A stretch of 21,026 bases of DNA from a virus: the IMG/VR virus record IMGVR_UViG_3300024518_001525, positions 1 to 21,026 of that record; one strand, given 5' to 3'. Under the pieces are notes generated by a model. That model did not search any database. It was not told where the DNA came from and was given only the letters and a program-made list of their open reading frames with translations. Made by a program: the position numbers and the translations under genes. This document shows, piece by piece, positions 1-13,183 of the stretch (position 1 is its first letter; the number at the start of each line of letters is the position of its first letter).

Positions 1-19
1 TGCTGGCCCTCCTGAAGGT

Positions 20-325
20 ATGGTAAAACAAATGATCCCATTCCCAGCAATGTGTTTACCAGCGACAGTAGAGAAACATCATTTCGCGGCTCTCATGGGT
101 GCATTAATTAATGACTACGGCGTTCATATCTCGATGACGTTCAGCGCGAGTCAGGATCAGAGTAGACGGGTCGCAATCATTGAGAACCCTGCTACTGGAT
201 TGGCTGGTGTGTTGATGATAATGGACGATCAGACTTGCATTGCCTTCAGCGGGGAGGATAGGCAAGTCTATATGCGCCCTCCAAACCATCCCGAGGGCAC
301 AGCGAATGAGGCTCCGAAGACATGA
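20..325 (+). CDS. hypothetical phage protein, possibly 5'-truncated
   Basis: I do not recognise this protein of about 101 residues. It is soluble, with no evident signal peptide, membrane segment or catalytic motif. The reading frame stays open from base 2 into the ATG at 20, so the true start may lie outside the window. An internal ATG at 32 is another candidate. There is no well-spaced ribosome binding site before the ATG at 20 (an AAGG only 2 nt away). The stop overlaps the next start as ATGA, so it belongs to the same plus-strand transcription unit as the small membrane-protein genes that follow. Confidence 0.6.
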   Translation: MVKQMIPFPAMCLPATVEKHHFAALMGALINDYGVHISMTFSASQDQSRRVAIIENPATGLAGVLMIMDDQTCIAFSGEDRQVYMRPPNHPEGTANEAPKT

Positions 326-528
326 GTGACGTTAGTGATCTTGAGATTGGGAAACTAATCCAGAAGGTTGATAGCCTTGAGGCCATGGTAAGAGAACAGA
401 ACGACCGGCTGGATAGGCTGGATCAACAGCTAGAACGTACGAGAGGCATAGGCATTGGTGTCGTCTTGGCTACTGTAGGTTTATCGGGTATAGGTGGTTC
501 GCTATTTACGAGGTGGTTAAGCGGATGA
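322..528 (+). CDS. small coiled-coil protein with C-terminal membrane segment
   Basis: This 68-residue protein has a hydrophilic heptad-like N-terminal half (about residues 8-40, rich in L, E, Q, R and D). One hydrophobic segment follows (about residues 43-62, GIGIGVVLATVGLSGIGG), then a short charged tail. The layout resembles small phage membrane proteins near lysis genes (XhlA- or holin-accessory-like), but no family can be assigned. It starts at an ATGA overlap with the preceding gene, and its own stop overlaps the next ATG in the same way. A lysis or envelope role is inference from topology and neighbours only. Confidence 0.65.
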   Translation: MSDVSDLEIGKLIQKVDSLEAMVREQNDRLDRLDQQLERTRGIGIGVVLATVGLSGIGGSLFTRWLSG

Positions 529-908
529 ATATAGATGCGAGAGTTTTAACAGTCGTGCTTTTCTTAGTTGCTCAAAGCGCAACAGGTATATGGTGGGCAA
601 GCAATCTATCCAGTGAAGTAGCGAGGCTTGCTGGCATCCAAGGCCAAGCTATCCCCGCTCTTGAGGCAGAGGCCCAAAAGTGTGGCATAGCTATACACAA
701 CAACGAGGCTGCTATCAAAGAATTACAAGAGCATGACCAAGCCATCTCTGGGCTAGATGTTTTGGAGTTTAAGATAGACGAGCTAAGAAAAGAGATCGCG
801 TCCTTGCGAGAAGTTGATCGAGAGATTATGACTCAGCATGAAAAAATATTCGACTGGATGGCACAGTCTAGCTCTATGCAGCAGAAAGGTGGCAATCCTT
901 ACAACTAA
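525..908 (+). CDS. membrane-anchored coiled-coil protein (possible i-spanin-like)
   Basis: This protein is about 127 residues from the ATG at 525. That ATG overlaps the upstream stop as ATGA and has GAGGTGG about 8 nt before it; the in-frame GTG at 513 is less likely. Residues 6-26 form one hydrophobic anchor (VLTVVLFLVAQSATGIWW). The rest is periplasm-like and largely coiled coil, around residues 55-110. An N-terminal anchor followed by a periplasmic coiled coil is the plan of inner-membrane spanins (Rz type), but many phage membrane proteins share it. A lipoprotein gene lies 0.5 kb downstream, which would fit an o-spanin partner only loosely. Confidence 0.65.
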   Translation: MNIDARVLTVVLFLVAQSATGIWWASNLSSEVARLAGIQGQAIPALEAEAQKCGIAIHNNEAAIKELQEHDQAISGLDVLEFKIDELRKEIASLREVDREIMTQHEKIFDWMAQSSSMQQKGGNPYN

Positions 909-1081
909 TGAAACACCTAAAAGACATTAACATGAGTTGGAGTAAGCACCTATGGTACGCACTGACGTTGGCTGGGAGGTTGTTTCTTTTGTCGTTGACT
1001 GCTGTGGCACATGGAATGTTGCCCTTTATATTTTCGTCCACAACATCTGAGGGCATAAAGAAACTACATGAGGAACTATGA
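908..1081 (+). CDS. DUF6356-like small protein
   Basis: This 57-residue protein reads from the ATG at 908, which overlaps the upstream stop (TAATG), to the TGA at 1079-1081. The sequence has an N-terminal HLKDINMSWSKHLWYALTLA stretch, a hydrophobic middle with AHGMLPFIF, and a C-terminal SEGIKKLHEEL. I recognise this as the pattern of the DUF6356 family (a DVNMxYxQH-like start, a central His-Ala-x-x-P-F segment and a KKLHxxL end). Its biochemical function is unknown; one amphipathic or membrane-associated helix is likely. It overlaps the Fe-S carrier gene as ATGA, so the two are probably translationally coupled. Family recall is from memory, not a search. Confidence 0.75.
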   Translation: MKHLKDINMSWSKHLWYALTLAGRLFLLSLTAVAHGMLPFIFSSTTSEGIKKLHEEL

Positions 1082-1377
1082 CAATCACAGAAGCGGCGCA
1101 GACAAAGGTAGACCAGACCCTAAATGGAGAAGGGTTCTTAGGCGTACACTTAGAAGGTGGGGGTTGCTCTGGTTATCAAATAAAGTTAAACCCGTCAACA
1201 GACATACCCTCAGACGCGAAGATGCTGTCGGAGACAATCTTCTCAGATGCCACCTCTTTGGAACTTTTAGGTGACGCAGTGATGGACTGGGACAACGACC
1301 CTTTCAGACCATCCTTTCATTTCACACCGCCTACAGGATCATCATCTTGTGGGTGTGGATCATCGTTTACTATATAG
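1078..1377 (+). CDS. A-type iron-sulfur carrier (IscA/ErpA/HesB family)
   Basis: This 99-residue protein has the three family cysteines in place: Cys30 in GGGCSGY and Cys91 and Cys93 in the C-terminal CGCGSSF. A-type carriers bind a [2Fe-2S] or [4Fe-4S] cluster at these cysteines and pass it to apo-proteins in the cytoplasm. Its length matches the family (about 100-120 residues), and the N-terminal ITEAAQTKV helix is typical, so it looks intact. The ATG at 1078 overlaps the DUF6356-like stop. HesB-like genes occur in some phages as auxiliary genes. Here it could help mature Fe-S proteins during infection; the client is unknown, and the RNR of this window is cobalamin-dependent rather than Fe-dependent. 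Confidence 0.92.
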   Translation: MTITEAAQTKVDQTLNGEGFLGVHLEGGGCSGYQIKLNPSTDIPSDAKMLSETIFSDATSLELLGDAVMDWDNDPFRPSFHFTPPTGSSSCGCGSSFTI

Positions 1378-1385
1378 GAGACATC

Positions 1386-1505
1386 ATGGAAAAATGGAAA
1401 GAATTAGGAAAGAGAAAAAAGTTTTGGGTGGCGGTAGGAATAATCGTAATCGTTGCCGTAGTAGGCTCTGTGTCTGGCTGGTGGTCATCGCCGCCAGCGG
1501 TTTGA
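1386..1505 (+). CDS. 39-residue single-pass membrane peptide
   Basis: This short gene reads from the ATG at 1386 to the TGA at 1503. It has a good ribosome binding site (AGGAG at 1375-1379, then ACATC). The peptide has a charged start (MEKWKELGKRKK), one hydrophobic helix (about residues 13-30, FWVAVGIIVIVAVVGSVSG) and a short WWSSPPAV tail. It looks like a small inner-membrane phage protein with its N-terminus in the cytoplasm. Most of it overlaps the lipoprotein gene in another frame. The strong binding site and sensible topology argue that it is expressed, but the function is unknown. Confidence 0.6.
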   Translation: MEKWKELGKRKKFWVAVGIIVIVAVVGSVSGWWSSPPAV

Positions 1506-1843
1506 CAGGATGTCAGCATTTGAAAACGGGACTAGCGACGAGCGCCATTGTCGGTGCGACGACTGCCTTAGTTCCGGCTGCGATTGTTGTTCCAGCGGTC
1601 CTAGGGGGAGTGACGGCTGCGACTGTCTCTGCGATAACTGCGGCTCCCGCACAGGCGTCTGAGATCAATGCGGACACTGTTGTTCAAGAAGCCCCGGCAA
1701 ACTTCTTTGATTTGCTGGGATCACTGGTGGAGGTTGGCGGATGGCTGTTGATACTAATTTTTGTGGCTCCGATGTTGTTGGGGTGGCTGCTTCCAGGGCC
1801 CCTGACGACACACAGCAAAAAGAAAAAGGGTCGAAAAAGATAG
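1394..1843 (+). CDS. putative phage lipoprotein with C-terminal membrane helix
   Basis: The frame encodes a basic N-terminus, a hydrophobic h-region (LCVWLVVIAAS) and a lipobox, LTGC, so the mature N-terminal cysteine is probably lipidated. A long Ala/Val/Thr-rich hydrophobic stretch follows, then a hydrophilic linker, a second strong helix (GGWLLILIFVAPMLLGWLL) and a lysine-rich tail (KKKKGRKR). The start is uncertain: ATG 1394 gives 149 residues, while TTG 1424 or GTG 1481 give shorter forms. ATG 1394 places the start inside the 39-residue membrane-peptide gene, in a different frame. The protein probably acts at the envelope; whether it is part of a lysis complex or superinfection exclusion cannot be told. 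Confidence 0.7.
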   Translation: MERIRKEKKVLGGGRNNRNRCRSRLCVWLVVIAASGLTGCQHLKTGLATSAIVGATTALVPAAIVVPAVLGGVTAATVSAITAAPAQASEINADTVVQEAPANFFDLLGSLVEVGGWLLILIFVAPMLLGWLLPGPLTTHSKKKKGRKR

Positions 1844-2058
1844 TAGCGGTTTCTTGGATAGACTCCTACACAGATGGGGGATGGGCTGAGTACTCTCCAG
1901 AGGAGGCAGAAACCACGACCTACGGCATCCTTGTTGACAAGAATGACAAGTGGACTACCTTAGCAATGACGGAGGAGAAAGGGTACTGGGGAAATCTCTG
2001 GTACATACCAACGAAGAATGTACTCAAGATCAGGGTTATCGAATACTCCTCTGAGTGA
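1741..2058 (+). CDS. hypothetical small soluble protein
   Basis: The product is up to 105 residues from ATG 1741, which has GGAGG 7 nt upstream inside the lipoprotein gene. The conserved-looking part starts near KKIVAVSWIDSYTDGGWAEY and continues as a beta-rich fold with GYWGNLWYIPTKNVLKI. The real start could be later, for example GTG 1783, because the first 35 residues share DNA with the lipoprotein tail in another frame. I do not recognise the family. It is the last plus-strand gene of the left arm, and its 3' end overlaps the convergent metallophosphoesterase gene by 23 bp. Confidence 0.6.
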   Translation: MAVDTNFCGSDVVGVAASRAPDDTQQKEKGSKKIVAVSWIDSYTDGGWAEYSPEEAETTTYGILVDKNDKWTTLAMTEEKGYWGNLWYIPTKNVLKIRVIEYSSE

Positions 2059-4890: not shown

Positions 4891-5399
4891 TGTCCGTATA
4901 CCCCATCACCTAAGTAAACCCCCTGTTCCGTACCATACCCCGGTAGGTCTGAGTACCAAGGTTCACTATGAACATACGGAGGAACATTTTCCCGTAACCA
5001 ATCTATGCAGTCCTGCTTTCTTTTGGACGTAAAATATAATTCTCCATCACACATCACCAGCCAACCAAGTTTCTTGACGCCCCATTTCCCGCCATCACGG
5101 TAATCGTAAGTGGGCCTTATGTCTGCCTCTACCGTCCATGAATGATCATCTTCATCTTGTCTGCGGAATTCCTTGAACCCAGCGATACCACATAAAGCCC
5201 TATACAGATCACACTTTGCCAAGAACTCGTAATACTCCCCCCTATCGGTTCCAGAATCATCGCTCCTTGGCATGGTTACTCGATTGATATTCCGTATCGT
5301 AATGTCGATCCCCTCTGGGGAGGCATCTATAGGCATTGGCTTTGGCTCGTCATTACTATACCATTTTCTGTCCTTAAAATATTCTGAAAGTTTTTTCAT
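4887..5399 (-). CDS. hypothetical protein downstream of RNR
   Basis: The ATG at 5399 overlaps the RNR stop as ATGA and gives about 170 residues. A start nine bases further up, inside the RNR gene, is less likely. I do not recognise the protein. It is soluble and acidic, rich in aromatic residues, with a central SWTVEADIRPTYDYRDGGKW stretch and a Tyr/Gly-rich C-terminus (GYGTEQGVYLGDGVYGH). No catalytic motif is evident. Position suggests co-expression with RNR and the HNH nuclease. Confidence 0.72.
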   Translation of the reverse strand: MKKLSEYFKDRKWYSNDEPKPMPIDASPEGIDITIRNINRVTMPRSDDSGTDRGEYYEFLAKCDLYRALCGIAGFKEFRRQDEDDHSWTVEADIRPTYDYRDGGKWGVKKLGWLVMCDGELYFTSKRKQDCIDWLRENVPPYVHSEPWYSDLPGYGTEQGVYLGDGVYGH

Positions 5400-7240
5400 A
5401 TTTCGCACACTCCTGCTGTGCAGGCCAGCTCTTGACTGGCCGTGGTATTGTCTACGTTTTCTTCGAAATTGAAGTCTATTTCTTTTGGCATCTCTTTCAC
5501 TATATTAGTATATTCTAATTTACTAATATCCTGATAAGGGGCCTGTTCATAGATGTGGTCATCGTCTGCAGAGGGGAGGAAGGAGATACCATTCACCATC
5601 CTGAAGTTCTCCCACACCCAAGACCCTACAGAGGGCCAATCACTCTCCCCTACGTAACAGGTCATGCTTGGTTTATGCTCACACCAATGGAGCGCAAACC
5701 GCCTCCATGTGCTCAATTGAGAGATAGGGCTTATATCTTTGCGTGTAAGGCCGTCAGACTTCATTGGGAAGTAAAACACCCAGGCCTCTGGGTTTTGCTT
5801 GTCCTCTTCATAAGGTATACCAGCGTCAATCATAACTTGTGCTAATGGGTCCTTCTTATCGTTACGCACTGCCCTTTTGTAGAAATTGTTGTAAGCAGGG
5901 TGGATTCCCGAGCTACATGAGGCAAGCTGACTCACCGTACCAGAAGGTTTCACACAGGTAACAGCCGCAGAGGGGGAGATCCCTAAGCGTGCAGCCCACT
6001 TCTCGTTAGTCGATACAGCATGGTTACGCAGAGACTCGAGCTCTTTAGGCGTAGCATTGTAGAGGGCAGGGCAATCGTATATCCCGGTAAAGGACACCCC
6101 TAACAGTCTTTCCTCCTCGCAGTTACGCTTCCAGATAGCACGTAAGTACCTAAAGTCAGTCAGAGTAGACTGTATCGTCCCCAGTATAGTTGCATACTCC
6201 ACCTTTTTCTTTAGTGTAGCAATAGTATCATCTGGCCTAGCCACTAGCTCAGAAAGGTTGCAGAATTCTGCACTGCGAAGTACTATTTCGCTGCAGGGAT
6301 TTGTACCGAAGTCATGGTTCTCGTCTCTCCGCTCGGGGAGCATATCTCTACAAGCCTGACGGTTGAAGACCCCACGTTCACCTGACCTACTTTCGTATAT
6401 AGATAGCCATTCACGCATGAAAGCGCCCACCTCGGGCTGCTCGGTAAAGCATATTGAGTTATTAGCAAGTGCTCTTTGCGGATTCTCTGTCCACCACTGT
6501 CCACTTTTCGCATTACGCATCCTCTCGTCGGAGTGATTGGAAAGACTGATTAGCGCAGTCCGGCGTACACCACCTACTAAGACAGCCTCTCCCTCATGGC
6601 AAATGAGGTCATGGACCTCCATAGAGGTGAGTTTTCTGCCTGCAGCGTTCTCAAAAACCCTTATAAAGTGCCGAAACATCCTCTCCAGAGGCTCTGGACC
6701 GGAGGCTCTACCCCCGAAAGTCTTTAACGGAGCACCTGAGGGCCTTATATTCGAGGTATCTATCTTGGGAATCAGCCCAGAATACAGCATTCCAACCAGT
6801 TCCTTTAGGGATTTTGCCCATCCTAGCTTGGAGTCGCTGACTACAATTGTCGTATCGGTATGATGGAATTCCTCCGCTACCTCAGGGAGCTTGGCTATAT
6901 ACTGCCTCTCCACAGAGAAACCCAGGCCAGTACCGCACAGCATAATGTAAAGGGCTTCATCAAACACCCTAACATGGTCTACGGCAACGTAGGCACAGTT
7001 GTAGCCCGCTACGTGGTCCCTTTCCAGAGCCCTCCCACTGGTCATAACAGCCCTCATAGAGGGAAGCACCTCCTTCTCAACGATAGCCTTACGTAAGAAC
7101 GATAGGTTCTGTCCTGTGTGGTCTGAGAAGAACTCTATGTACCTGTCTACTGTCTCGGGCCACGTTTCTCGCCTTTGTTTCTCGGGCAGATATCTTGCGT
7201 AACGAGAGATAGCGATGTAGTCTTGGTATAGGGATGTCAT
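5396..7240 (-). CDS. nrdJ: class II (adenosylcobalamin-dependent) ribonucleotide reductase, monomeric type
   Basis: This 614-residue enzyme reduces ribonucleotides, probably triphosphates, to deoxynucleotides for phage DNA synthesis. Seen: Cys82 in NCAYVAV (redox), the active-site loop NPCSEI (Cys316, Glu318), Cys327 (partner redox Cys), a GGRASGP loop, the phosphate-binding KPSGTVSQLASCSSG segment, and the C-terminal pair Cys607 and Cys612 (CTAGVC). The Cys pattern and single chain match monomeric class II reductases of the Lactobacillus leichmannii type. No small subunit or glycyl-radical activator lies nearby. It is shorter than the roughly 740-residue reference enzyme, as phage versions often are. 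No intein is seen. It sits mid-operon with ATGA overlaps at both ends. Confidence 0.94.
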   Translation of the reverse strand: MTSLYQDYIAISRYARYLPEKQRRETWPETVDRYIEFFSDHTGQNLSFLRKAIVEKEVLPSMRAVMTSGRALERDHVAGYNCAYVAVDHVRVFDEALYIMLCGTGLGFSVERQYIAKLPEVAEEFHHTDTTIVVSDSKLGWAKSLKELVGMLYSGLIPKIDTSNIRPSGAPLKTFGGRASGPEPLERMFRHFIRVFENAAGRKLTSMEVHDLICHEGEAVLVGGVRRTALISLSNHSDERMRNAKSGQWWTENPQRALANNSICFTEQPEVGAFMREWLSIYESRSGERGVFNRQACRDMLPERRDENHDFGTNPCSEIVLRSAEFCNLSELVARPDDTIATLKKKVEYATILGTIQSTLTDFRYLRAIWKRNCEEERLLGVSFTGIYDCPALYNATPKELESLRNHAVSTNEKWAARLGISPSAAVTCVKPSGTVSQLASCSSGIHPAYNNFYKRAVRNDKKDPLAQVMIDAGIPYEEDKQNPEAWVFYFPMKSDGLTRKDISPISQLSTWRRFALHWCEHKPSMTCYVGESDWPSVGSWVWENFRMVNGISFLPSADDDHIYEQAPYQDISKLEYTNIVKEMPKEIDFNFEENVDNTTASQELACTAGVCEI

Positions 7241-12172: not shown

Positions 12173-12528
12173 CACAACAGCCCCGCGGCGCTCAGCGCGT
12201 CGTATGTTTCCCGAGCGCGGTGATAACTGCAGGCTGCTCGAGCGCGTATCACTCGAATAGCCTTACGCCGGGCCGCTGTCTCGTCGACATAATTGTCGGG
12301 GTTACCATCGCACACCAGTTCGTGCAGTTCCTGAATATAATGACCGCACTTTCCGCCTTCGCGGTAAAACTGAAAACGTACTTCGTCGATCACTCGGGGA
12401 TCTAGTTTACGACCGCGACCATACGCCGACGTGATTAGTCGGTCGGCGTGATACATCGCGCCCCGGGTGTGCTCCACAGCGTCATTAATTGCCCGCTGTA
12501 CTTCGGTAGTTAATAGCTGATTAGCCAT
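12172..12528 (-). CDS. hypothetical cassette protein
   Basis: This 118-residue basic, helical protein has GGAG 9 nt before its ATG (GGAGCAAATCAAAATG). Its sequence includes MYHADRLITSAYGRGRKLDP, an FQFYREGGKCGHYIQELHELVCDG stretch with two cysteines and two histidines, and an Arg/Ala-rich end (ARRKAIRVIRARAACSYHRARETY). The Cys/His spacing does not form an obvious zinc finger. It overlaps the DUF7227-like gene by 8 bp. Function unknown. Confidence 0.72.
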   Translation of the reverse strand: MANQLLTTEVQRAINDAVEHTRGAMYHADRLITSAYGRGRKLDPRVIDEVRFQFYREGGKCGHYIQELHELVCDGNPDNYVDETAARRKAIRVIRARAACSYHRARETYDALSAAGLL

Positions 12529-13183
12529 TTTGATTTGCTCCGATTGTTTGCCCGGGCAGACCCCGGGCAGTCTTTTCGATTAAGGCGCGTTTGTGTGCCT
12601 TGGGTCGAAAACCGATTATCACGTTACGGTCGGAGCGAGAACACAGCCCGCAACGTGAGCAATTTAGATTCTTGGTATCAGTGGGACACGCCACGATTTT
12701 ACGACCCGCCGGAGTATATGAGACGTTCGGCGTATCGTTTGGAATAAGGGTAGCGACCTGTAGGCCAGTGTCCGCCAGGCGGTCGGCTTGCGTCGAATCC
12801 TCGGCGCTCAGATTGAAGTTAAAGCCGCCCCGTACAGCATCGCGCAGCAGCTCGAGCGTGTCGCCAATGGGCTTGTGGTGTGTAAACGCGATAACAGGCC
12901 GTCGAGCGTTGGCGTGTACCAGTTGCGGCAACCAGTCTAGTTCTGTATCGCCAGCAACACAGTGTCTCCAAATTTGAGCTCGAGACAAACGCCGGATATG
13001 TTTGCATAGCTGATCCGGTGTGATAGCGAATTCGGGTACCCGGTCCCAATGCAAGCGGACCGGGAAGCCCTCGGCATAACAGATCCCCGCCAATGCACAC
13101 GGCGGGCATGTATCCCGGCTCGAGTACGTCGCCGGAATAGGTCCTAGGTGCCGATTACTCGACTGGTGAATGTATCGAATCAT
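12521..13183 (-). CDS. DUF7227-like cysteine-rich phage/plasmid protein
   Basis: The 220-residue product has an N-terminal LGPIPATYSSRDTCPPCALAG motif with Cys26, Cys29 and Cys35, then IWRHCVAGD, a TPAGRKIVACPTD segment (Cys166), and a C-terminal cluster NCSRCGLCSR (Cys175, 178, 181) ahead of NVIIGF. I recall this pattern (GPIPATxSxxxTCPxxCPx...GCYA ... C..CxLC....R..I.GF) from DUF7227-type proteins on phages and plasmids. The seven cysteines suggest metal or Fe-S binding, and an alpha/beta core (FNFNLSAEDSTQADRLAD) lies between. The catalytic role is unknown. It overlaps its upstream neighbour as ATGA. Confidence 0.78.
   Translation of the reverse strand: MIRYIHQSSNRHLGPIPATYSSRDTCPPCALAGICYAEGFPVRLHWDRVPEFAITPDQLCKHIRRLSRAQIWRHCVAGDTELDWLPQLVHANARRPVIAFTHHKPIGDTLELLRDAVRGGFNFNLSAEDSTQADRLADTGLQVATLIPNDTPNVSYTPAGRKIVACPTDTKNLNCSRCGLCSRSDRNVIIGFRPKAHKRALIEKTARGLPGQTIGANQNG

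Follow-up and report, generated by a model that had tools for sequence, protein, structure and literature searches.

Fe-S assembly genes are known from marine phages. The extracts of Nishimura et al. 2017 (PMC5332604) describe 16 marine viral genomes with such genes, of which 14 have an A-type carrier (ATC) and 6 IscU, together with many close relatives without those genes; according to the extracts of two further papers (PMC9038755, PMC10580990), Fe-S assembly genes are also present in HMO-2011-type phages and in two genomes related to OM43 phages. As far as these extracts go, marine-phage ATCs were already known before the carrier analysed here. DUF6356, the family of the neighbouring gene, came up in one of the papers searched, as a list item with no function given.

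We analysed a virus contig record of 21,026 bases (the window), in which a DUF6356-like gene and an Fe-S carrier gene overlap as ATGA. A preliminary description of this DNA had taken the overlap as a sign of joint function, and had suggested that DUF6356 may be linked to Fe-S delivery or to the membrane. The overlap is real and both open reading frames lie where they had been placed, but our analysis favours another reading of it: with a probability of about 0.72, DUF6356 and ATC are neighbours by insertion and no dedicated pair, DUF6356 being part of a resident cassette and the ATCs cargo at a hotspot.

The window portal matches phrog_1216 among the PHROG profiles, and its best deposited match is that of Pelagibacter phage HTVC106P (42%), while the terminase is closest to that of Pelagibacter phage Baldr (57.5%). 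We named the clade SU10-like after a 32.5-kb relative with portal, major capsid, and adaptor proteins of SU10, in which the carrier shares 97% identity with that of the window. On the minus strand, positions 5396–7240 encode a ribonucleotide reductase whose closest class is the adenosylcobalamin-dependent one (TIGR02505, 3.5e-75, short of the cut-off; phrog_367, 2.4e-165). The two genes of interest belong to a series of small rightward genes that ends against leftward genes (sec123, ccTM68, TMcc114, TM40, F1, and F13 are names coined in this analysis):

2–325, plus strand: sec123, a small secreted-type protein cut by the contig end (family F8, 66 loci; complete copies have an N-terminal signal-like stretch).
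322–528, plus strand: ccTM68, a coiled coil followed by a C-terminal TM-like stretch (weak match to phrog_1296, holin, E 0.18).
525–908, plus strand: TMcc114, an N-terminal TM-like stretch followed by a coiled coil (start ATG at 525, from the 4-nt overlap).
908–1081, plus strand: DUF6356 peptide, 57 aa, with a predicted single membrane helix and invariant H3, H14, and H35 (PF19883, AlphaFold2 model, 88-row alignment).
1078–1377, plus strand: A-type Fe-S carrier (ATC1), 99 aa, with C30, C91, and C93 (PF01521, TIGR00049, IscA/SufA fold).
1078–1081, plus strand: ATGA start/stop overlap of the DUF6356 and ATC1 genes, read from the sequence.
1386–1505, plus strand: TM40, a single-TM-type peptide of 39 aa that marks the right-hand end of the cargo site and on which the control sample was anchored.
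1394–1843, plus strand: F1, with a lipobox-like cysteine and a C-terminal TM-like stretch (start codon inferred; ORF 1349–1843; family in 94 loci).
1741–2058, plus strand: F13, with which the rightward series ends, facing the convergent leftward genes.

TM40 and F1 (window 1386–1843, plus strand) overlap in different frames. For F1, Pfam gave no match and PHROG none better than 0.045; Pfam and profile searches found no family for F13.

The gene identities given in the preliminary description were borne out. The DUF6356 peptide scores 53.2 bits against PF19883 (E 3.2e-14; cut-off 24.4) and looks like a membrane peptide, its predicted structure (pLDDT 84.5) having helices at residues 2–6, 11–37, and 45–56 and its 19-residue hydropathy reaching 1.79. 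In an alignment of 88 sequences (27 from phages, 31 from the order of a SAR86 genome, and 30 from other Pseudomonadota), collected by a profile search, which favours conserved positions, H3, H14, and H35 were identical in all 88 and no other residue was invariant; P39 was present in 87. In the unrooted tree, one side of a branch (100/96) is made up of the 27 phage rows together with 13 from the SAR86-genome order. The window peptide had no PHROG match and nothing significant among 50,697 deposited phage records (best E 2). Fold matches in BFVD were discarded, with E-values of 0.098 or worse; the model also resembles proteins from a Megaviridae sample and from Marseillevirus LCMAC202 (TM 0.86–0.87), a likeness left unproven by E-values of 0.19–0.38.

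ATC1 passes PF01521 at the limit (26.4 bits, cut-off 26.3), lies just under the TIGR00049 cut-off (56.2 bits against 58.8, E 3.2e-15), and matches phrog_17776 (3.7e-14). Its AlphaFold2 model (pLDDT 81, falling under 50 at residues 91–93) resembles IscA 1x0g (TM 0.80, Foldseek 1.2e-05) and SufA 2d2a (TM 0.79). It fails the NCBIfam equivalog cut-offs for ErpA (46.6 vs 117), SufA (41.7 vs 136.2), and IscA (35.1 vs 150.6), and we assign it, from sequence and predicted fold, as an ATC-fold carrier, claiming it as neither IscA, SufA nor ErpA. The cysteine triad (C...CxC; C30, C91, C93) is present in all 26 aligned ATC rows, and all 22 ATC1 rows keep GGGCSGY and CGCG; in the ATC2 paralogue (two rows), CGGC replaces CGC, with one extra residue. 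ATC1 is under purifying selection, with a median dN/dS of ~0.08 (38 usable of 55 pairs, synonymous sites being near saturation). No match to ATC1 was found at E 0.01 among the 50,697 deposited phage records. Single phages carry up to three ATC paralogues (L013, L014), and tandem paralogues are seen at L013 904–1568, L093 984–1639, and L008 2684–3001.

Among 45 IMG/VR loci with a related carrier, 33 have DUF6356 upstream of it on the same strand; the linkage thus recurs in other genomes, though the controls described below show it to be positional. Among the 12 loci without DUF6356 upstream, four have at most 208 upstream bases and cannot tell. The DUF6356–ATC1 junction is direct in 8 of the 33 loci (-4 to +3 nt), six of them with a 4-nt overlap, besides the window, and in L013 and L014 ATC2 is preceded, at a distance of 2 nt, by a second DUF6356 copy; these direct junctions count against our reading. 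In the other 25 loci, at least 135 nt holding one or more small genes separate DUF6356 from ATC. The filler varies between loci: it may be further carriers, an HNH-type protein, a protein rich in Pro and Gly, or one with a CxxC...CxxC pattern that by eye resembles a zinc ribbon. ATC occurs without DUF6356 in L020, L024, L034, and L035; in L020 and L024 the carrier directly adjoins M83, a further gene of the cassette, and in L018 an HNH-type gene separates the two. L018 had been suggested by clustering as a DUF6356 carrier; the profile finds none there, and it is counted as being without DUF6356.

The overlap itself carries little information, since a 4-nt start/stop overlap is possible at 15 of the 32 same-strand junctions of the window and a 1-nt overlap at 5 more, and for this reason the ATGA was rejected as evidence of coupling. 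As a control for recurrence we anchored a sample on TM40, which borders the site on its right and whose choice favours neither DUF6356 nor ATC. The main count took the 45 of 65 TM40 loci with at least 1,000 upstream bases and left out 20: 25 contigs carried both genes, 14 DUF6356 only, 4 ATC only, and 2 neither (Fisher p = 1.0), so that DUF6356 is as common without the carrier (14/16 ATC-less contigs) as with it (25/29 ATC-bearing contigs). Clustering at 95% identity (33 clusters) gave 18, 9, 4, and 2 in the same order. A limit of 700 bases gave 28, 15, 4, and 5 (odds ratio 2.3, p = 0.28) and one of 1,200 bases 24, 11, 3, and 2 (p = 1.0); DUF6356 lies up to 1,087 bases before TM40, further for a second copy, so the 1,000-base limit may be short. 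DUF6356 is missing in only 6 of the 45 contigs, so that a modest preference could go unseen, and the anchoring sees only phages that keep TM40. In a first sample of DUF6356 loci (80 of 122), biased toward ATC-bearing loci because these supplied 7 of the 10 rows of the seed alignment, 39 of the 80 nevertheless had no ATC on the stretch examined. Recurrent adjacency holds within the clade, but in the light of the TM40-anchored sample it was likewise rejected as evidence of coupling. The proposed step from overlap and adjacency to joint function is not supported; of the two links suggested for DUF6356, the one to the membrane agrees with helix 11–37 and the hydropathy profile, whereas the one to Fe-S delivery finds no support, the peptide being just as frequent in the absence of ATC, seldom close to one in bacteria, and set among very different genes in other phage lineages.

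Pairs of close relatives reveal the edges of the insertion. ATC-less L265 matches ATC-bearing L260 at 90.4% identity over 1,182 bp, up to ~10 nt before the end of DUF6356, and L265 has ~300 other bases where the homology with L260 stops; on the other side, ATC-less L253 and ATC-bearing L237 are 90.6% alike from 18 nt before the TM40 match onward. In a divergent lineage, L400 has the order DUF6356-ATC-F1 and its relative L401 DUF6356-TM40-F1, with flanking stretches 81–88% identical. These homology edges and gene orders identify the stretch between DUF6356 and TM40 as a cargo site, at which ATC is an accessory gene, present or absent at one position in close relatives.

The cassette, lying against convergent replication genes, would comprise a small secreted protein, coiled-coil/TM proteins, DUF6356, TM40, and a lipoprotein-like TM protein. 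It resembles a lysis module, in which DUF6356 would be a single-TM accessory peptide and the genes would probably be expressed late. In the window's clade, the resemblance comes from the layout and from weak matches to lysis families, namely a holin (0.18), an Rz-like spanin (phrog_89, 0.025, for TMcc114, whose best PHROG match is phrog_8909, of unknown function, at 0.002), and a transglycosylase (0.0035, after F1 in L401); no endolysin was identified in the window. F1 may be u-spanin-like, judged by eye from its layout. In the gap between DUF6356 and TM40, small genes, among them one for an HNH protein and one to three for ATCs, would come and go, and the ATGA would reflect dense phage packing and at most co-translation.

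Because the ATC sequence features are kept and purifying selection acts on the gene, ordinary cluster carriage seems the likely activity: the carrier would take clusters from host Isc/Suf scaffolds via its three cysteines, most likely like a cellular ATC, and hand them to host apo-enzymes or to a phage protein during infection. Searching 24 contigs of the window's kind for IscU gave none, and no Fe-S enzyme appeared among the 19 families listed for the 51 proteins of the 32.5-kb relative. On the minus strand of the window (12521–13183) lies a DUF7227 protein (PF23872, 3.5e-50) whose CxxC-type motifs hold nine cysteines; being Cys-rich, it is a possible Fe-S protein and client of the carrier. 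The Cys-rich protein GP88 is another candidate client, and it was also found in an ATC-less contig.

DUF6356 may itself be cargo, a host-derived membrane peptide of general use picked up by many phages, in which case the surrounding cassette would be no lysis module; we consider this a genuine possibility, though not the favoured one. The peptide occurs in many phage contexts: it directly follows nrdA, with nrdB downstream, in eight contigs (L131, L323, L324, L326–L329, L341), and elsewhere lies beside head-closure, DNA-end-protector, helicase loader, DAHP synthetase, cytidylyltransferase, DNA polymerase, and carbamoyltransferase genes. At L131 857–4987 (the same contig as L322), NrdB was recognised by PF00268. 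Most of the nrdA-DUF6356 contigs have, between DUF6356 and nrdB, a gene that PHROG names 'ferredoxin'; the name was set aside, Pfam finding no family. That DUF6356 is carried by 43 of 398 Pseudomonadota genomes (the phylum of SAR86 genome L135) and that the clade offers no firm lysis family also speak for a cargo peptide. It behaves, however, like a resident, being found in 39 of the 45 anchored contigs whatever the cargo. Another lineage has, close to DUF6356 in 13 loci, a protein with a secondary Rz-like match: its L342 copy hits phrog_4952 (signal peptide motif, 1.1e-24) and, less strongly, an Rz-like spanin (9.9e-7), though the L354 copy has no spanin match. A coiled-coil protein stands close by in 12 loci, and its secondary match is to a holin (1.2e-4 in L342, 0.0026 in L354). 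Such spanin- and holin-type neighbours lend weak independent support to the lysis reading. At L342 3278–4538, L351, L354, and L397, in phages unrelated to the window, DUF6356 sits between the two types of neighbour.

A functional pair, with DUF6356 anchoring the carrier at the membrane to feed membrane-bound Fe-S enzymes and ATC-less phages relying on the host carrier, appears unlikely. It would account for the adjacency and the shared overlaps, for the predicted membrane helix, and for the DUF6356-ATC order kept by the divergent L400; but the two genes are present independently in the anchored sample, where 4 of 45 contigs have the carrier without DUF6356, and other genes intervene in most of the loci that have both. 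In a second sample of DUF6356 loci (80 of 119), L400 was the only one of the 80 with a carrier on the stretch examined. Bacterial DUF6356 and ATC genes are mostly apart as well: all 43 DUF6356-bearing genomes of the phylum sample have ATC genes, but only one of them (G112, 2.35 kb, opposite strands; L169, G112:C70:11000-22000) has the two genes within 5 kb of each other, the distance in the SAR86 genome itself being 106.5 kb. In the order of the SAR86 genome, DUF6356 was found in 63 of 199 genomes, 62 of them not already counted; ATC was present in 61 of these 62 and within 50 kb of DUF6356 in none, many of the genomes being fragmented and only 10 having both on one contig (nearest 56.6 kb). 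When 40 bacterial stretches were clustered, 16 contained an Lrp/AsnC-like family and 10 a family resembling class II glutamine amidotransferases (both named by eye), with no ATC pattern among the families listed. Neighbour frequency in phages and bacteria, which the preliminary description had proposed as a check, shows a recurrent but positional linkage in the phage clade and rare proximity in the bacterial genomes sampled.

The invariant histidines, and the metal-chemistry genes that adjoin DUF6356 in two groups of phages, led us to consider DUF6356 as a metal-binding membrane peptide (iron, haem or zinc) with a three-histidine site in an oligomer, by which phages would manage iron during infection. 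H3 and H14 would precede the membrane helix or fall at its beginning, and H35 would be close to its other end. The NrdB small subunit contains metal in known class I enzymes, and metal binding, if true, would explain the neighbours of DUF6356, Fe-S carriers here and nrdA/nrdB in other phages. We rate it as quite improbable because the ATC neighbourhood did not withstand the control and the nrdA neighbourhood comes from a single lineage. Least credible of all is a recruitment of the ATC fold as a structural or lysis protein that no longer carries clusters, for which one could cite the position of ATC among small membrane proteins and the CGGC of ATC2, against the retention of the three cysteines and of both ATC1 motifs, purifying selection on ATC1, and the dispensability of ATC in related phages.

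These results take away the temptation to read a gene that overlaps an Fe-S carrier as ATGA as necessarily encoding an Fe-S protein, and a neighbouring anchor gene offers a way to test such gene-pair guesses. The analysis also maps a cargo site at which uncultured marine podophages collect one to three Fe-S carriers, and the three invariant histidines of DUF6356, in many phages and bacteria, provide a concrete first set of mutations toward its role.

Compared with known systems, phage DUF6356 has its size, helix, and H3/H14/H35 in common with the Pseudomonadota forms (PF19883), and differs in that phage forms mostly start M-x-HL, many bacterial ones having HP, and sit in phage operons. ATC1 shares fold, cysteine triad, and length with cellular IscA, SufA, and ErpA (PF01521, TIGR00049); unlike them it is phage-encoded, sometimes with two or three copies in tandem, and it scores only at the cut-off of PF01521, below that of TIGR00049, and far below the equivalog cut-offs. 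As in the marine-phage Fe-S genes of the published extracts (PMC5332604, PMC9038755, PMC10580990), the ATC is phage-encoded and patchy among close relatives. Relative to those ATCs as described there, the ones analysed here belong to an SU10-like podophage clade, occupy a defined site beside DUF6356 with up to three paralogues, and occur in contigs in which IscU was not found.
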